Assembly (NCBI GenBank): GCA_007845355.1
Contig: SDRQ01000001.1
Span: 1-64,000 of the forward strand
Direction of reading: 5' to 3'
Origin: TM7 phylum sp. oral taxon 352
Lineage (GTDB): Bacteria; Patescibacteriota; Saccharimonadia; Saccharimonadales; Saccharimonadaceae
DNA: 64,000 nucleotides
Shown here piece by piece: positions 3,355-12,256 of this stretch. A model generated the notes under the pieces. The model searched no databases and had not been told where the DNA came from. It was given only the letters and a program-made list of their open reading frames with translations. Position 1 is the first letter of the stretch; every line of letters starts with the position of its first letter. The position numbers were made by a program, and so were the translations under genes.

Positions 3355-4377
3355 TTAAACATCTCGTCGAGTTTTTGTGGGCAAATTATTTTTCTGCGGA
3401 TTAGCCGTGGCGGCCTTACGAATATCTCCATAAACATCATATTCGTCAATAATTTTCTGACCTAATAGCGCTTCAATTACGTCTTCTAAGCTCAGTAGAC
3501 CAACTGTTTCTCGAAATTCATTCACAACAATAAACAAGTGATGCTGCGTTTTCAAAAATGCAGCCAAGGCGTGCTGTAAAGTTTGATTTTCGCGAATATA
3601 ATAGACGTCTTTGCTCATGACTGTTTCCGCGCGATGAGATTTTGCTTTACGATCAATCGTCAGCAAATCTTGAATCCTCAGCATGCCAATAACGTGGTCA
3701 ATGTCACCGTCAATGACAGGAAATCTGCTATACCCTTTTTTATGAAGATCATCAAGCACTAGCGGCCCAAGGAGTTCGTTCATAGGTACCGATTCAATCA
3801 TGCTTCGCGGCGTCATAACTTCCTCGACCTTCATATCGTTGAACTTCAGTCCGTTAGTAATAAGCTTTTTCTCAGAAGGTGAAATCGCCCCGCTAGATTG
3901 AGCCACCATTTCCAGCAATTCTTCTTTCGATTCAATCACCTGACTATCACCAACAACTGGCGATACCGAACGGATTAGCGACAAAATTACTTGATGTCGC
4001 TCAATTGTCGTCAAGATTAGTGGTTCGTATTTTTCATAAAGTTGCTGTGAGTATTTCTGCCACAAGCCAATTCGCGCGACGGCTCCGATTTCTAGAGCTA
4101 TTATAATTGACAAAAAGAGTCCAGCCGCCCAGTTGAACAAATAAACACTAATAACACTTAAAATTACCAAACATAAAGAAGCCACGGCGCGCTGCAGTGA
4201 AATAATATCTCGTAAAAATTCTCTTTGTCGCAAAAGAATTTTAGCCTTTTCATCGCCTAGTCCACTTCTCCGCCGCAGCTCAAATTGACTATGCGAAGAC
4301 GTTTTTGGCTGAACTCCCAGCACTATCAGCAAAACCGCCAAAGTAACCAAATATCCAAAAATTAGCACAATCGTCAT
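3355..4377 (-). CDS. CBS-domain CorC/HlyC-family protein
   Basis: About 340 aa. One N-terminal helix (residues 1-20) and two more near 60-100 are followed by paired CBS domains: EEVMTPRSMIESVP opens the first, and VMSKDVYYIRENQTLQHALAAFL the second, ending with VGLLSLEDVIEALLG. This is the architecture of the CorC/HlyC/CNNM group, implicated in Mg2+/Co2+ efflux and often mislabelled haemolysin. The membrane part is shorter than a standard DUF21 domain, and the usual C-terminal transporter-associated domain is missing. I set the start at the ATG at 4377, since the -10 box TACAAT at 4384-4389 would exclude the upstream ATG at 4395. It is divergent from the DsbA gene. Confidence 0.75.
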   Translation of the reverse strand: MTIVLIFGYLVTLAVLLIVLGVQPKTSSHSQFELRRRSGLGDEKAKILLRQREFLRDIISLQRAVASLCLVILSVISVYLFNWAAGLFLSIIIALEIGAVARIGLWQKYSQQLYEKYEPLILTTIERHQVILSLIRSVSPVVGDSQVIESKEELLEMVAQSSGAISPSEKKLITNGLKFNDMKVEEVMTPRSMIESVPMNELLGPLVLDDLHKKGYSRFPVIDGDIDHVIGMLRIQDLLTIDRKAKSHRAETVMSKDVYYIRENQTLQHALAAFLKTQHHLFIVVNEFRETVGLLSLEDVIEALLGQKIIDEYDVYGDIRKAATANPQKNNLPTKTRRDV

Positions 4378-4383
4378 AGTTTT

Positions 4384-4389
4384 ATTGTA
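4384..4389 (-). promoter_or_regulatory. -10 box, leaderless type, for the CBS-domain gene
   Basis: TACAAT on the minus strand, ending 6 nt before the ATG at 4377. Confidence 0.5.
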
Positions 4390-4402
4390 CCGCATTCCGT
4401 GC

Positions 4403-5141: not shown

Positions 5142-5180
5142 AAAATCCCGCTCCGGTGCCTTGGAGCGGGATTTGTTTAT
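5142..5180. terminator. Strong intrinsic terminator, probably bidirectional
   Basis: Perfect stem AAATCCCGCTCC / GGAGCGGGATTT with an 8-nt loop, followed by T-rich DNA on the plus strand and preceded by A-rich DNA. It closes the DsbA gene. Read the other way, it closes the small leftward unit starting near 5404. Confidence 0.85.
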
Positions 5181-5219
5181 AGTCGTCCCTATTCTATCGT
5201 TGGATCGACTGCACTCTTT

Positions 5220-5312
5220 TTATTGTGCTATGTATGTTTGCCATTCGGCAGGCACCACATCCACCGCGATCTTTTTGCGCCTTGATGGCACAAATTTGAT
5301 TGCTATTGGCAT
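5220..5312 (-). CDS. Candidate 30-aa basic micropeptide
   Basis: Short open frame starting MPIAIKFVPSRRKK and ending in EWQTYIAQ, net charge about +3. AAGGAG (5323-5328) sits 10 nt before its ATG, a good ribosome binding site. It lies inside a leftward unit bounded by a sigma70-type promoter (-35 at 5434-5439, -10 at 5411-5416) and the terminator at 5142-5180. I do not recognise a family. The alternative is that the transcript acts as an RNA and the frame is incidental. The codon run is too short for a composition test. Confidence 0.45.
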   Translation of the reverse strand: MPIAIKFVPSRRKKIAVDVVPAEWQTYIAQ

Positions 5313-5373
5313 GTGTTTTGCACTCCTTATTATTATGTGCAGCCCCACGCGCTTCGACCTTTATCACTTAATA

Positions 5374-5403
5374 TCAGCAATTTAATGCTTCGGCGCGAGA
5401 CAT
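5374..5403 (-). CDS. Possible leaderless 9-codon leader peptide
   Basis: An ATG at 5403, 7 nt after the -10 box TAACAT, opens a frame MSRAEALNC then TGA. The spacing matches the leaderless rule of this genome, so the RNA would begin at or next to this start codon. It may be a leader peptide controlling the downstream micropeptide, or coincidence. Confidence 0.25.
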   Translation of the reverse strand: MSRAEALNC

Positions 5404-5410
5404 GCTAACA

Positions 5411-5439
5411 ATGTTACCAAACGTTTATTGGTACGTCAA
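5411..5439 (-). promoter_or_regulatory. Promoter with embedded inverted-repeat operator
   Basis: On the minus strand TTGACG (5434-5439) and TAACAT (5411-5416) are separated by exactly 17 nt. The spacer (5415-5433) is the inverted repeat TACCAA-N7-TTGGTA, positioned so that a bound repressor would block RNA polymerase. The stretch 5124-5474 holds no long gene; this promoter, the two small frames and the terminator account for it. Confidence 0.55.
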
Positions 5440-5474
5440 GCAAAAACATTTTGAAAATGCTTATTATATCTATA

Positions 5475-6395
5475 TTAGAACAAGCGAAGTCGCTTAGCAA
5501 CAAACATAACAAGTAAAATCAACAACACTGTAAAACTGGTGATAACTGGATATGCCCAAGGCTCGCCCTGAAATGGCAACGCGATATTCATTCCATACAT
5601 TCCGTAAAAAACGTTTGGAATAGCCAGAAGAATTGTTATGGCGGTCAATGCCTTCATGCGTTGGTTTAGCGTATTATTAGCAACCGTCGAATAAGCGTTT
5701 TGGATGCTGGAAATTGTGTGCGTACTGGAACTGATTGCCACTAAAACTTGCCTGATGTGTAAATCGACGTCCTCCAAGGCTTCCAGATCTCTAGTCTTAA
5801 ATAGATGGCGACGATTTTCCATCAGTTGTGTAATAACACGGGACATACCTTCCAAGCTGCTTCGATATTCATTGAGCGTGTCTTCAATTGCGACAAATTT
5901 AATAAAATCCGAATTCTCAACTTCATGACGGCTTAGTCGCCGACGAGCATCGCTAATTTGCTCCGTTAACAAATGCACGCGTTGTTCATATTGAGAAATA
6001 ATATACGCCAAATTCGCAGCAAAAACTCCCGCTGGACGCTCGGTTGTGCTAAATAAATAATCGCTGACCTCCAGGGGTGAAAATTTAGCATGAGGCGATA
6101 TTGTAATATAATGACCGCCGCTAATTGCAATCAAAAACGGCGCCGTTTTGCCAGAATCAGTTTGACCAAACGGTATGCGCGTAAAAATATATTCAACACC
6201 ATCAGAAAACTCCGCTCGAGGTAATTCGTGGATATCGAGTACGTCACGGACAATATTAGCAGACAGCGACAAAGCCTTTGAAACTCGAGTAGCATCAAGA
6301 CTCCCGGTCAAATTAATCCAACCGTTTTTATGCATTCGTTGAGCTTGCGTCAACTTTTCAGTCAACGATCTGCGTTCAAAATAGCCCACCATCAT
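5475..6395 (-). CDS. corA: CorA-family divalent cation channel (copy 1)
   Basis: 306 aa. A long soluble N-terminal alpha/beta and helical domain (to about residue 240) is followed by two C-terminal helices with the CorA signature YGMYGMN (GMN motif) just after the first. Family members are homopentameric Mg2+/Co2+ channels of the inner membrane. The -10 box TATAAT at 6402-6407 ends 6 nt before the ATG, indicating a leaderless mRNA. A paralogue lies immediately upstream in the same direction with its own promoter; the two could form distinct channels or mixed pentamers. Confidence 0.92.
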   Translation of the reverse strand: MMVGYFERRSLTEKLTQAQRMHKNGWINLTGSLDATRVSKALSLSANIVRDVLDIHELPRAEFSDGVEYIFTRIPFGQTDSGKTAPFLIAISGGHYITISPHAKFSPLEVSDYLFSTTERPAGVFAANLAYIISQYEQRVHLLTEQISDARRRLSRHEVENSDFIKFVAIEDTLNEYRSSLEGMSRVITQLMENRRHLFKTRDLEALEDVDLHIRQVLVAISSSTHTISSIQNAYSTVANNTLNQRMKALTAITILLAIPNVFYGMYGMNIALPFQGEPWAYPVITSFTVLLILLVMFVAKRLRLF

Positions 6396-6452: not shown

Positions 6453-7367
6453 TTAGCGGCGGCGCAGGAAATAATAGCCCACAACGAATGCCAGAACTAC
6501 ACTAACTGCGGTAATTCCCCAAAACATCAATGGATTATCGGCACCTGGAACCGGCACGTTCATACCATACAAACCAGCGATCATCGTCGGAATAGTCAAA
6601 GCTACGGTAATTACGGTTAGCAGACGGATCGTTTCGTTAAGGCGCGTATCCATCACCGCCCTATAGCTATCGCGCACATTAGTAATCGTCCTCAACAAAC
6701 TTTTACAACGCGCAATCACCTGCTCCAAATCAATCGAAATATCCTCAACGTCTTCCTTATCATCAGCCTTCAGTCGCAACTTCTGAGTCGCCAAAAGTTT
6801 CTCAATTGCCCAGTTCATCGGAATTAACGCGTCAAGATAATCATTCAATTTGCGCTCATACTCTGCCAGAGTGGCAATGTCATTAACTCTCAGCGTATGA
6901 ATACTGTCTGTAGCCGCTCGCATTTGGCGATTAATTGTTGCCACGCGCCGCTGATATTGCATTGAAATCGCCTCAACCATCGCCACCAAAAGCTCAACTT
7001 GTCGATCCGTCCTAATTCGCACTTTATCAATAAATGGCTGCCATAATCGCCCCAAACTATCTCTAGACAGCGTCACGATATGATCTTTATTAATGCAGAA
7101 TAAAATCGGCGTGGTAAAATCGTTAAAATCGTCGTCAGTGTCTGGCAATCGCGCAATCAAATAAGTCCACTCATCGTCAAACTCAATACGCGGCACCTCG
7201 TGCGGGTCAAGCGCGTCACTTATCAAATCCTCATCCAAGCCCAGAGTCAACAATTGCGAAATCTCTTCGTCGCTTGGTCTTTCGCAGCGCACCCACGAAC
7301 CAGACTGCAAATTTTCTTGCGGGCTAATTATTGAATCACTATTTGTTGAACGAAGATATTGCAACAT
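6453..7367 (-). CDS. corA: CorA-family divalent cation channel (copy 2)
   Basis: 304 aa with the same architecture as its downstream neighbour. The C-terminal AGLYGMNVPVPG carries the GMN motif between two membrane helices (about residues 242-262 and 275-297), and the tail is FLRRR. The two paralogues are clearly related but well diverged in the soluble domain. The -10 box TATAAT at 7376-7381 ends 8 nt before the ATG, so the leader is essentially absent. The metal specificity (Mg2+, Co2+ or Zn2+ export) cannot be told from sequence. Confidence 0.92.
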   Translation of the reverse strand: MLQYLRSTNSDSIISPQENLQSGSWVRCERPSDEEISQLLTLGLDEDLISDALDPHEVPRIEFDDEWTYLIARLPDTDDDFNDFTTPILFCINKDHIVTLSRDSLGRLWQPFIDKVRIRTDRQVELLVAMVEAISMQYQRRVATINRQMRAATDSIHTLRVNDIATLAEYERKLNDYLDALIPMNWAIEKLLATQKLRLKADDKEDVEDISIDLEQVIARCKSLLRTITNVRDSYRAVMDTRLNETIRLLTVITVALTIPTMIAGLYGMNVPVPGADNPLMFWGITAVSVVLAFVVGYYFLRRR

Positions 7368-7443: not shown

Positions 7444-8394
7444 TTACGATTTGACTATCGTGCCTGCCGAGCCGTTAATGGCTTCAGCGGTTTTATCCAG
7501 CGAAGTAATAATCGCCGTACGCCCCGACTTTCCATCCAGGAACGACAAGGCAGCCTGAGTTTTTGGCAACATTGAACCTGCCGCAAATTGCCCATCGTCA
7601 ATATGCTTTTGAAGTTCTTCTATTGAAACTTCCCCAAGAGATTGTTCATCTGGTTTGCCAAAATTAATTTTAGCAGCATCAACCGAAGTCAAAATCAGCA
7701 AGGTGTCAGCATCCAAAAGATCTGCCAATTTTGCCGCGCCGAAGTCCTTATCAATGACCGCAGCGACGCCTTTTAATTGACCAGTTTCGTCTTGCAGAAC
7801 AGGAATGCCGCCGCCGCCAGTTGAAACGACCGTCACGCCAGCATGAACCAGTGCCTTAATCACGTCGGCCTCAACAATCGTCTGAGGTTTTGGCGATGGA
7901 ACGACACGCCGCCAACCACGGCCAGCGTCTTCTTTTACCGTGTAGCCGCGCTCGCTAGCGACGGTTTTTGCCTCGTCTTCCGAATAGAACGGACCAATTG
8001 GCTTGGTTGGATTTTGGAATGCTGGATCGCTCAAGCTAACAATCGTTTGGGTTATAACGCTAACAGCGCGATTGTTCATCTGATTAACCATAAAGGCGTC
8101 ATGAAAAGCCTGTTGCAGCCAAAAACCAATCAATCCCTGGCTCATAGCGCCAGAATCTTCCAATGGCAAGCTTGGCACATCTGGCGTGTTAATCGCCTCT
8201 TCGTGCAACACAATATTGCCAACCTGAGGGCCATTGCCATGAACAATTGCTACGTTATGACCAGCTTGGATTAACGGTAAAAGTTGACGAACCGTTTCAT
8301 CAGCCACTCGCTGCTGCTGCTCAGACGCGGCTTCGCCCTGCCGTTGCAGGGCGTTACCACCGAGCGCTACTACAATAGTACGCTTCTTATCCAT
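7444..8394 (-). CDS. arcC: Carbamate kinase
   Basis: 316 aa, full length. Catalyses carbamoyl phosphate + ADP to ATP + CO2 + NH3, the energy-yielding last step of the arginine deiminase pathway. VVALGGNALQRQG at the N terminus, VHGNGPQVGN, STGGGGIPV and AAVIDKDFGAAKLAD are family signatures of the amino-acid kinase fold. The ATG is 3 nt after the arcD stop with no clear ribosome binding site of its own, so it depends on arcD translation. Last gene of the operon. Confidence 0.97.
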   Translation of the reverse strand: MDKKRTIVVALGGNALQRQGEAASEQQQRVADETVRQLLPLIQAGHNVAIVHGNGPQVGNIVLHEEAINTPDVPSLPLEDSGAMSQGLIGFWLQQAFHDAFMVNQMNNRAVSVITQTIVSLSDPAFQNPTKPIGPFYSEDEAKTVASERGYTVKEDAGRGWRRVVPSPKPQTIVEADVIKALVHAGVTVVSTGGGGIPVLQDETGQLKGVAAVIDKDFGAAKLADLLDADTLLILTSVDAAKINFGKPDEQSLGEVSIEELQKHIDDGQFAAGSMLPKTQAALSFLDGKSGRTAIITSLDKTAEAINGSAGTIVKS

Positions 8395-8397
8395 AGG

Positions 8398-9942
8398 CTA
8401 CAGTGCTCCGAAAATTGCAATAACTGTGATGCTGATAATAGCAAATATCGCCATAATTGGAGCTGAGCGTTTTAGCCAGTCGCGATACGAAACACCAGCC
8501 AAAGCCAATCCACCCATCAACGACGCGATAGTTGGAGCCATCATGTTGATCAAGCCAGACGCTGTCGCAAATGCGGCGACCATAACTTCTTTACTTGAGC
8601 CAACCAAGTCAGCAATTGGCGCGATAACCGGCATAGTTGCTGCCGCCAAACCTGATGATGACGGAACGATAAATGACATTGGCAAGTAAAATAGGTACGC
8701 CAACACACCGACAACACCGCCACCAGCATCTTTCAGGAGAGATTCACCCCAGCTGATGATCGTGTCCTGAATTTCGCCATTAGACATCACCACAGAAACG
8801 CCCGTTGCCACTGCGATAATCAGAGCAACCGGCAAGATGTCTTTCACACCATCGATAAATGTATCAACTGGGAAAACACCCTCTTTCTTAAATTCTTTGT
8901 AGTAAATTGCGGTTATGACAATTGTTGAAATTAGGAATAGCGCAGTGATTTCATTGAAATACCAATCACCAAAGGCTGCACTGTGGACTACACCAAGCAC
9001 CGCGCCAATAACTGGCAAACCTGCAGCCCATTCAAACATATCAGCGAAGAATGTGATATTCCAACTTCCCCATGGAATCAAGGAAAGAATCATTAGCACA
9101 AATGTAATAGCAAACACAGACATAACAACTTTTCGCGGACCAGTGAATTTTGGTACGTTTGTCATGTCGAGAGCAGCCGTAGCTGGCTTGTAGCGAACAT
9201 CTTCTTTATACTTGCCGGCCTTCACTTTTGCGGCGTAACGCATAGTAAAGACAATCGCGGCAATCAAACAAAGTACTAAGATGATAGACATTATTGGAAT
9301 AACGCTACCCAATTTCACATCTGCGGTTTTTGCTGCAACACCAGTAGAAAATGGGTTGATTGTCGAACCGAGCACGCCAGTACCAGCACCCAGAACAATC
9401 ACCATCACACCAGTCATGGCGTTATAGCCAGCAGCAATCATCATTGGTATGACGAGCGCATAGAACGCCACAGTTTCTTCTTGCATACCGTAAGTAGTAC
9501 CACCGATAGCGAATAAAATCATCAGAATCGGGATGAGCCACTTTTCCTTGCCCTTCATCTTTCGGAGCAGCGCGCCAAGAGAAGCGTCAAGCGCACCAGT
9601 TTTCATAGTGACGCCTAAGAATCCACCAAGCACCATCACGAAGACGATGACATCAAGCTTGTCTGACATACCTTTAATAGGTGCGGTGAAGACGTCCCAC
9701 AAACCTTGCTGGTCGTGTTTTTTGACCTCTTCCTTTTTACCGTCTTTTTCTTCCGTGACGGTTCGCTCTTTGTCGACTACGTGATACGAATTAGCTATAC
9801 GATCGCCGTCCTCGTTTGTCTTATATAAACCCGAAGGAACAACCCACGTCAATGCCGCCATAATGATGATCACGACAAACAAAATAGTAAACGCCGACGG
9901 TGATCGAAGCTTCTGCTTTGCTTTTTTAATTTTTTCTACCAT
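8398..9942 (-). CDS. arcD: YfcC-type arginine/ornithine antiporter
   Basis: 514 aa with about 12 membrane helices. Belongs to the YfcC/C4-dicarboxylate-carrier-like family, which supplies ArcD function in many streptococcal arginine deiminase operons. Family blocks include TWVVPSGLY near residue 33, GGTTYGMQEETVAFY, NPFSTGVAAKTA and VPSSSGLAAATMPV. It should exchange external arginine for ornithine at no energy cost. There are two GGAGG sequences upstream (9944-9970), the nearer about 10 nt from the ATG. Its position between arcB and arcC supports the role. Confidence 0.9.
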   Translation of the reverse strand: MVEKIKKAKQKLRSPSAFTILFVVIIIMAALTWVVPSGLYKTNEDGDRIANSYHVVDKERTVTEEKDGKKEEVKKHDQQGLWDVFTAPIKGMSDKLDVIVFVMVLGGFLGVTMKTGALDASLGALLRKMKGKEKWLIPILMILFAIGGTTYGMQEETVAFYALVIPMMIAAGYNAMTGVMVIVLGAGTGVLGSTINPFSTGVAAKTADVKLGSVIPIMSIILVLCLIAAIVFTMRYAAKVKAGKYKEDVRYKPATAALDMTNVPKFTGPRKVVMSVFAITFVLMILSLIPWGSWNITFFADMFEWAAGLPVIGAVLGVVHSAAFGDWYFNEITALFLISTIVITAIYYKEFKKEGVFPVDTFIDGVKDILPVALIIAVATGVSVVMSNGEIQDTIISWGESLLKDAGGGVVGVLAYLFYLPMSFIVPSSSGLAAATMPVIAPIADLVGSSKEVMVAAFATASGLINMMAPTIASLMGGLALAGVSYRDWLKRSAPIMAIFAIISITVIAIFGAL

Positions 9943-9981
9943 TGCCTCGGAGCCTCCTTAACCTCCTTATTACGACAACAA

Positions 9982-10971
9982 CTACAATGTCAAAGCCATC
10001 ACAGCTTTGATTGTATGCATACGATTTTCCGCTTGATCAAAAACTATCGAATGTGGCGAGCGGAACACCTCATCCGTCACTTCCATTGAATCTAAACCGA
10101 AATCTTCCTGAATCTTCTTCCCAGTAATCGTCAATGCATCATGGAATGCTGGCAAACAGTGCATAAACTTAACTTCAGGATTTCCTGTCAGGTTAATCAT
10201 TTGGCGGTTAACTTGGAAATGTCGCAATTGGTTAATGCGCTCAGCAAACTTATCTTCCTCGCCCATTGAAACCCAAACGTCTGTGTAAATTACATCAGCA
10301 CCGCGCAAAGCTTCTTCGAAGTTGTCAGTGACGGTAATACGCGCATGACTTGACCTGGCAAAGTGATTTGCTTTATCAACCAAAGCTTGCTCTGGATGCA
10401 ACTCACGAGGCGCCAAAATGCGGAAATCAAGTCCCATAATAGCTGAACCGATCATCAGCGAGTTCGCCATATTGTTGCGACCATCGCCAACAAATACCAG
10501 CTTAGTTCCCTTCAGTTTTCCAACATGCTCTTCAATTGTCATGAAGTCAGCCAAAATCTGTGTTGGATGGAACTTATCGGTCAATCCATTCCATACTGGA
10601 ACGCCAGCGTGGCGCGCCAATTCCTCAACAGTTGCGTGATCAAAACCGCGGAACTCAATCCCATCAAACATTCGACCCAAAACCTTAGCGGTATCTTCAA
10701 CCGTCTCTTTCTTGCCCAATTGAATATCATCTTTACCGAGGTATTCCGGCGCAACTCCAAGGTCATTAGCAGCCACTGTAAATGCGCAGCGCGTTCGTGT
10801 TGAAGCCTTTTCGAATAGCAATGCCACATTTTTACCCTCATGAATTCGGTGCGGAATGCCGGCATATTTCAATCGTCGATATTCACGAGCGGCATCCAAT
10901 AGCAAGCGAATCTCTTCAGCGGTATAATCGCTCAAAGTCAGTAGCGATCGTCCTCTCAAACTCTGAGCCAT
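9982..10971 (-). CDS. arcB: Ornithine carbamoyltransferase (catabolic)
   Basis: 329 aa. Converts citrulline + phosphate to ornithine + carbamoyl phosphate. STRTRCAF (carbamoyl phosphate binding), [20 protein letters not shown] (SMG loop) and HCLPAFHD (catalytic Cys) are all intact. No biosynthetic arginine genes are nearby, which supports the catabolic direction. The arcA stop and arcB start overlap by 1 nt (TAATG). Confidence 0.97.
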
Positions 10972-12209
10972 TAGAATACATCCTCTCGTACTAGCGGCAT
11001 ACTCATACAGCGTGGACCGCCACGACCGCGTCCAAGCTCAGCACCACTAATCTCAATAACTTCAATACCGTTTTCGCGCAATTTCTGGTTAGTTACGTAG
11101 TTACGATCATAAGTCACCACAACACCCGGCGCAATCGCCAAAGTGTTTGAACCGTCATTCCACTGCTCACGAGCAGCAGCAATCGGATCGCCACCGCCAC
11201 ACTCAATCAACGTAACACTTGGCAAGCCCAGCGCAACCCTCAGAACGTGCTCCAAATCTGTTTCGTGTGTAATTCGTGGGAATGGCTGACCTTCAACCTT
11301 CTCCAAAATAAAACAATTCATCCTGCCGCCGTGGTCGCGAATTTCTGGGTGAATCGTAAACTTATCACGATCAATCATCGTAAACACGGTGTCTAGGTGC
11401 ATGAAGGCGTGAGATTTTGGAATTTCCATAGCAATGACTTTCTCGAATTTCGAACCAGCAAACAATTTGGTTGCCATCTTTTCAATTGCCTCAGCGGTTG
11501 TTCGCTCTGAAACACCAATTGCCATAACCTTATCGCTTAATATTAATTCGTCACCACCTTCCATTGAGAATTTCTCTGTGCGGTTGTACCAAACTGGCGC
11601 ACGATTAGCAAAGCGTGGATGGTGGTCGATGATGTAGCGCATAAATAGCGATTCACGACGACGAGCCGTCCAGTGCATCTTGTTGATTGTCAAACCGTTA
11701 CCAATTGCGGCAGCCGGGTCGCGTGTAAAGTATAGGTTTGGCATCGGGTCGAGATAGAACGGATAACGATTTTTCTCGATCATATTATGAAGTTGCTGAT
11801 GCTGGTCTGGAGGCAAAGTAATTTCATCCTTGCGAACACCAGCCATAATCTTGCGAATCATAGCGTGGGTTGGCAAATCCAACAAGAATTGACGCAATGT
11901 TTGAGTAACGCGGCGTGAATCCTGCTTAGAAGCAGCCAACATTTCATCGACAAATTGTTCGCGCAATTGATCCGTGCTAATTGCCTCGGCGACCAATTGA
12001 TCCAGATACAAAACTTCGATTCCACGACTTCTCAATGCTTCCGCAAAAGCATCGTGTTCAGCCTGCGCCACTTTCAGATATGGAATATCGTCAAATAAAA
12101 GATCGGTCAGATAGTCTGGCGTCAAATTTTCCAGCTCTTCACCTGGCCGATGCAATAGAACGGTCTTAAGTTTTCCTATTTCAGACGTTATGTGAATTGG
12201 TTCGTCCAT
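10971..12209 (-). CDS. arcA: Arginine deiminase
   Basis: 412 aa. Hydrolyses arginine to citrulline + NH3. Conserved blocks: [34 protein letters not shown] (catalytic His/Asp) and the C-terminal [14 protein letters not shown] with the nucleophilic Cys. The start is the ATG at 12209, preceded by GGGGAGGG with 6 nt spacing; the GTG immediately before it is less likely. First gene of arcA-arcB-arcD-arcC, which lets the cell make one ATP per arginine and raise local pH. The pathway is known from oral Saccharibacteria, where it helps both symbiont and host. Confidence 0.98.
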
Positions 12210-12256
12210 CACAACCCTCCCCTGTTTATATTAGTGATGTTTTAATTGTAACACGT

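Follow-up and report, generated by a model that had tools for sequence, protein, structure and literature searches.

An apparently undescribed micropeptide gene with a structured mRNA, conserved in the Saccharibacteria order

Hidden small genes are a known kind, as are structured mRNAs. The mRNAs of ribosomal proteins such as L10, S15 and L20 have an autogenous, structured leader beside the Shine-Dalgarno (SD) sequence that acts in cis only, and a product that is small, soluble, near-universal and single-copy. Dual-function RNAs (RNAIII/hld, encoding delta-haemolysin, SgrS/SgrT and SR1/SR1P) are structured RNAs of ~250–500 nt that include an ORF of 25–45 codons, and the mRNAs of type I toxins (hok, tisB and ibsC) likewise combine a short ORF with a structured, possibly long-range paired, RNA. 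The spread of type I toxin modules is typically patchy. Conserved short ORFs that annotation has missed make up the Sberro human microbiome set and GMSC (PMC11364881), and such large small-protein catalogues might list the peptide described here; the literature searched mentions neither the peptide nor its RNA, and the gene is apparently undescribed. Apart from autogenous control, which would apply to it by analogy, the gene shares the features of build and product listed above with each group but differs from the ribosomal protein mRNAs in that it has no ribosomal protein or Rfam leader match and its structure runs through the ORF, from the dual-function RNAs in that it is an order-wide, vertically inherited gene whose peptide has persisted over evolution where the RNA structure has not, and from the type I toxins in that its product is not a hydrophobic membrane peptide and it is near-universal rather than patchy. 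What is new is the order-wide spread at 23–31 aa and covariation that extends through the ORF.

The window is a stretch of 64 000 nt from TM7 phylum sp. oral taxon 352 (contig SDRQ01000001.1), and the gene lies on its minus strand in a gap of 351 bp, just downstream of a CorA stop codon (5477–5475). A first-pass annotation had proposed a hidden small transcription unit here, with its own promoter, SD, 30-aa ORF and terminator. When the sequence was read directly, all of the listed parts were found on the minus strand in the reported order, namely a −35 element TTGACG (5439–5434) separated by 17 nt from TAACAT (5416–5411), an inverted repeat TACCAA-N7-TTGGTA (5433–5415) regarded as a putative operator, a predicted transcription start at about 5404, a 9-codon ATG frame MSRAEALNC* (5403–5374), the SD AAGGAG (5328–5323), the 30-codon ORF MPIAIKFVPSRRKKIAVDVVPAEWQTYIAQ (5312–5220), and a terminator hairpin (5174–5143) with a perfect 12 bp stem that is shared with the convergent dsbA gene. 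In a pattern scan, 8 promoter-like sites were observed where shuffles gave 4.2±2.0, and 3 terminators where 2.2 were expected; the window includes four ORFs of 20–60 codons with a strong SD. As the scan counts are near the shuffle expectation, the parts are not beyond chance by pattern alone. The reality of the gene is settled by conservation, the evidence being comparative, and on this evidence 5439–5143 is an autonomous gene made up of promoter, leader, SD, 30-codon ORF and terminator, as had been proposed.

DNA comparison matched the 351 bp gap in 8 of the 9 genomes of the genus. With the single 30-aa sequence as query, matches were found in 151 of 394 family genomes, most of them once per genome, full length and with 44–100 % identity; a few with E above 0.01 are partial and perhaps due to chance. 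Profile A1 found the peptide in 106 of 198 genomes of the order and, in a set of 287 phylum-wide genomes, nothing outside it. Profile A6, which takes in distant members and has the consensus MPIKIKxxxSRxxxVxVxVxRPxWQxFIxY, raised this to 145 of the 198 genomes and to 100 of the 122 genera in the order, with E values down to 1.6e-17, a strongly positive outcome for the conservation in relatives that the first-pass annotation had named as a check. No credible family member was found outside the order among about 267 genomes, the one A6 match there being a partial one within a 179-aa frame, which was dismissed. An apparent absence from two large genera of the same family was rejected after reading downstream of their dsbA genes, where the genera missed by the profile have relatives of 23–29 aa at the same place (for example MRIKRLKRSGGRQKSKIAPAAWQEFIEI and MKKRSRKGTLRVEDALRWNEYIEM) that carry the SD, the promoter and the AGGTCG leader motif. 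In one genus the peptide is 24 aa long. On these comparisons, the peptides form a conserved family that is near-universal in the Saccharibacteria order to which the window's genome belongs. Weak second matches were noted in a few genomes (L306, L307); these are 26-aa frames that resemble the N-terminal hairpin only, e.g. MPVVITDESHRATKITVRVERPQLRV, and are possible paralogues.

The ATG is kept and the stop is at codon 31 in 117 family relatives, the family alignment is gapless over 30 aa, and an SD-like motif precedes the ORF in 119 of 124. Synonymous bias in the 30 codons, also suggested earlier as a check, was strongly positive, with pS 0.53, pN 0.175 and a median dN/dS of 0.20 (117 distinct family sequences); for structure-free codons only, pS was 0.71 and pN 0.17. 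We regard the existence of a translated gene as nearly certain. The 9-codon frame, which had been thought possibly leaderless, is not conserved: it begins with GTG in most of 50 relatives and is 2–26 codons long or open. The peptide lacks hydrophobic character, with a GRAVY of 0.12 in the window and negative values, ranging to −1.2, in three others; far members include some that are very basic (a pI of 11.8, for example), and near members are only weakly basic. AlphaFold2 predicted a beta-hairpin followed by a C-terminal helix (E3-10 E13-21 H22-29) with pLDDT 78, which for a 30-residue model is suggestive only. Searches of Pfam, NCBIfam and PDB sequences with the peptide returned no match, and a PDB fold search gave none at E<=0.001.

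The predicted promoter is of the strong extended −10 type. In the window the extended −10 is TGG followed by TAACAT (5419–5411), TGn ahead of TAnnnT being the commonest layout in relatives, and the strict pattern TTGAC-N14..16-TGnTAnnnT occurs upstream of the ORF in 103 of 122 family relatives and in none of ~733 control windows, mostly coding, from the same loci. The repeat proposed as an operator is present, but it is largely accounted for by the promoter, its right arm TTGGTA forming the extended −10 (TGn-TA) and the first bases of the −10. A matching left arm in the same register was found in only 8 of 116 relatives (several genera; 2.0 expected by shuffling) and is broken, as TGCCAA, in the nearest genome, and the host genome holds no further copy of TACCAA-N7-TTGGTA beyond that in the promoter. 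Hence, a role for the repeat as an operator for a regulator is weakly supported at best, possible but unproven. What looked like a second upstream promoter in relatives is, by eye, the conserved CorA C-terminus (codons for AKRLRLF*). A short inverted repeat at 5446–5460, after the CorA stop and ahead of the −35, occupies the same place in many relatives, its sequence varying by species (e.g. AGCGTTAT..ATAACGC), and could serve as a weak terminator for CorA or in regulation.

The first-pass annotation missed the 5′ leader, an untranslated structured RNA element of ~94 nt (5406–5313), the leader helix P1 and the RNA structure inside the ORF discussed below, and it noted neither the freezing of the terminator loop nor the spread of the gene through the order. 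P1 joins GTCTCGCGC (5401–5393) to GCGTGGGGC (5350–5342) over 9 bp; in 7 of its 9 pairs both partners have changed, and 97.8 % of cells are paired. For the leader, covariation was counted in 29 cells where shuffling gave 7.3, and the covariation score was 0.294 against 0.208, values reached by none of 500 shuffles in either case; slid structures, used as a control for P1, also failed to reach the observed covariation. The motif TAAAGGTCG (5363–5355; UAAAGGUCG), just before the SD, did not vary in 50 aligned relatives. AGGTCG is present in 97 of 124 family leaders and in about 3 % of control windows. With covariance model R1 the leader is found a single time in each genome and directly abuts the ATG, with E values of 2e-14 to 3e-26 where the match is better; the leader therefore acts in cis on this gene. 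No match was found at the site in an Rfam search at the gathering score, and no tRNA or tmRNA; sub-threshold Rfam matches, e.g. RsaJ on the terminator, were set aside as chance only. In three relatives from one genus (L012, L015 and L016) an extra ~55–90 nt with apparent hairpins of its own lies between the leader helix and the SD.

Distant families have another leader motif, [AG]A[GA]ACAAAA, found in 25 of 40 and in 0 of ~222 controls, and their leaders may form a second class that serves the same peptide. This motif also takes the form GA[GA]ACAAAAACAAUAAAA (L171–L200), about 50–100 nt upstream of the ORF, and ACUUC often precedes it, just after the promoter.

Within the ORF, the relatives that have the frozen terminator loop use nearly fixed synonymous codons at positions 5, 7, 8, 12, 14, 17–20, 22, 23 and 26, while codon 21 is mostly fixed and the others vary freely, a pattern explained by helices. 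Columns 19–26 pair with columns 32–39 to form a hairpin at 5294–5274 (5294–5287 with 5281–5274). In this hairpin the pair 25–33 (5288–5280) is CG in 28, UA in 27, UG in 7 and GC in 1, and is never broken, tying Pro9/Ser9 to the silent third base of Arg11; the pair 24–34 switches from GC to UA. A second hairpin at 5250–5239 (UGCC 5250–5247 with GGCA 5242–5239) includes the pair 63–74, which switches from UA to CG when Q25R (CAA to CGA) occurs together with a silent change at Pro21 (CCT to CCC). On the DsbA tree the pairs 25–33, 24–34 and 63–74 change ~24, ~7 and ~5 times, respectively, and as the changes are repeated they do not reflect a single inherited change. The ORF has 41 double-change cells against 7.1 when shuffled (0 of 500), and its folding energy lies below that of synonymous randomizations (mean z −1.7, 95 relatives). 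A candidate helix of 55–60 with 81–86 showed no covariation. In the aligned sequences, amino acid changes are thus matched by silent changes elsewhere in the ORF, so that a single sequence clearly meets the demands of a protein and of an RNA fold together.

The terminator stem varies among relatives, and the core of its 8 nt loop, GGCACC, is frozen, usually as AAGGCACC (5162–5155), an octamer that occurs once in the window. The frozen core was found in 98 of 125 relatives, and most of the rest have other hairpins. GGTGCC, complementary to the loop and located in codons 19–21 (5256–5251), is present in 94 of the 98 relatives with the loop and in 3 of the 27 without it, though this split in presence and absence of the two also follows phylogeny. 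A pseudoknot-like contact of GGUGCC with the GGCACC loop is plausible and, because both sides are invariant, lies beyond proof by covariation.

We infer translation, a target, autogenous control and the contact between loop and ORF, and the following scheme would unite them. The gene would be transcribed from the extended −10 promoter into a ~260 nt monocistronic structured mRNA, and its soluble peptide would bind a core, order-wide target, which could be RNA polymerase, an RNA, or a ribonucleoprotein, for instance the ribosome. The level of peptide would be set at translation, with the leader helix and UAAAGGUCG ahead of the SD sensing the peptide or its target and tuning initiation and mRNA stability; in its folded form, in contact with the terminator loop, the ORF would join in both sensing and tuning. 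Regulation in cis by the structured mRNA is likely, and feedback specifically by the peptide, suggested by analogy, is less likely than not. Taken as one explanation, the micropeptide gene with its structured mRNA, core target and translational self-control has about an even chance of being right, a figure that is a compromise over those for the translated gene, the cis-regulation and the peptide feedback. The RNA mechanism is perhaps not order-wide, since outside the family the leader is different and folding of the ORF is weaker (z −0.5). The bolder reading, of an order-defining core micropeptide that could be an unrecognized ribosomal or RNA polymerase component, is possible but doubtful; its mRNA would represent a new structured RNA class, with the coding sequence forming part of a conserved regulatory fold made up of the leader helix, the ORF hairpins and the contact of ORF and terminator loop.

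The main rival is a dual-function RNA, in which the ~260 nt RNA would act in trans, using the frozen terminator loop AAGGCACC and the leader motif as a seed or to bind protein, while the peptide would be a second product. Structure and freezing at the nucleotide level across leader, ORF and terminator are consistent with this, as is a loop that stays frozen although the stem varies. However, members from beyond the family differ in leader, loop and ORF structure yet retain the peptide pattern, and the loop has a partner within the same RNA, in the ORF; we consider this explanation unlikely but not negligible. A lineage-specific ribosomal protein or ribosome-associated micropeptide, subject to the leader feedback seen for ribosomal proteins, would be a specific form of the preferred reading of a self-controlled micropeptide gene. 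A near-universal, single-copy, soluble product with a strong promoter and a structured leader beside the SD fits this well, as do the very basic far members, but there is no match to a PDB chain, evolution is fast (24 aa in one genus) and the near members are only weakly basic, making it a rather improbable form. No ribosome structure from Saccharibacteria was found in the literature searched.

The gene is convergent with a gene for a DsbA-like thioredoxin (dsbA) at 148 of 166 loci overall and at 31 of the 40 in other families, and a CBS-domain (CorC/CNNM-like) gene adjoins at those loci. The median distance between the end of dsbA and the small ORF's start codon is ~180 nt. This arrangement, and a shared terminator with a frozen loop, could indicate a cis element of dsbA, in which the small gene would be the driver and dsbA would be regulated through the shared bidirectional terminator and the overlap of the 3′ ends. 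Such an element leaves the amino acid conservation and the leader unexplained and, as gene order is generally well kept in Saccharibacteria (PMC10768705), the dsbA neighbourhood is weak evidence of function and better evidence of homology; hence, we give this explanation little weight. A type I toxin, with a ~30-aa product from a small, stable, structured mRNA, is suggested by the size and by the likeness to Hok-type mRNAs, and is very improbable given a peptide that is not hydrophobic and vertical conservation at one locus throughout an order. The same very low probability attaches to a non-coding structured RNA with an incidental ORF, which would account for the strong nucleotide-level constraint but not for pS far above pN, the strict length, the SD and stop, or a protein pattern that outlives the RNA structure. 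Chance alignment of motifs in the gap, each alone near expectation, is refuted by the order-wide conservation and has a vanishingly small likelihood.

Order-wide retention, and encoding by an RNA bound to conserved shapes, make it probable that the gene has an important function. A protein of 23–31 residues is kept across an order of ultra-small epibionts yet is absent from the family libraries searched, which suggests that core components of minimal genomes can lie hidden below the length at which genes are annotated. Very little is known of gene regulation in this group, and the micropeptide gene offers a concrete, testable target.

The gene upstream of the micropeptide varies. It is CorA in many relatives and, by eye, an antiporter, iron permease, NadD or Nramp in distant families; other ion transporters seem to lie beside the micropeptide in distant relatives. 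In the window, genes for VIT1 (234–767), a CBS-domain (CorC/CNNM-like) protein (3355–4395) and two tandem CorA proteins (5475–6395 and 6453–7367) form an ion-transport cluster. Beyond it, at 7444–12212, carbamate kinase, a 514-aa membrane protein, ornithine carbamoyltransferase and arginine deiminase were recognized by eye in a row, an arrangement known for some Saccharibacteria, and the membrane protein looks like the partner transporter.
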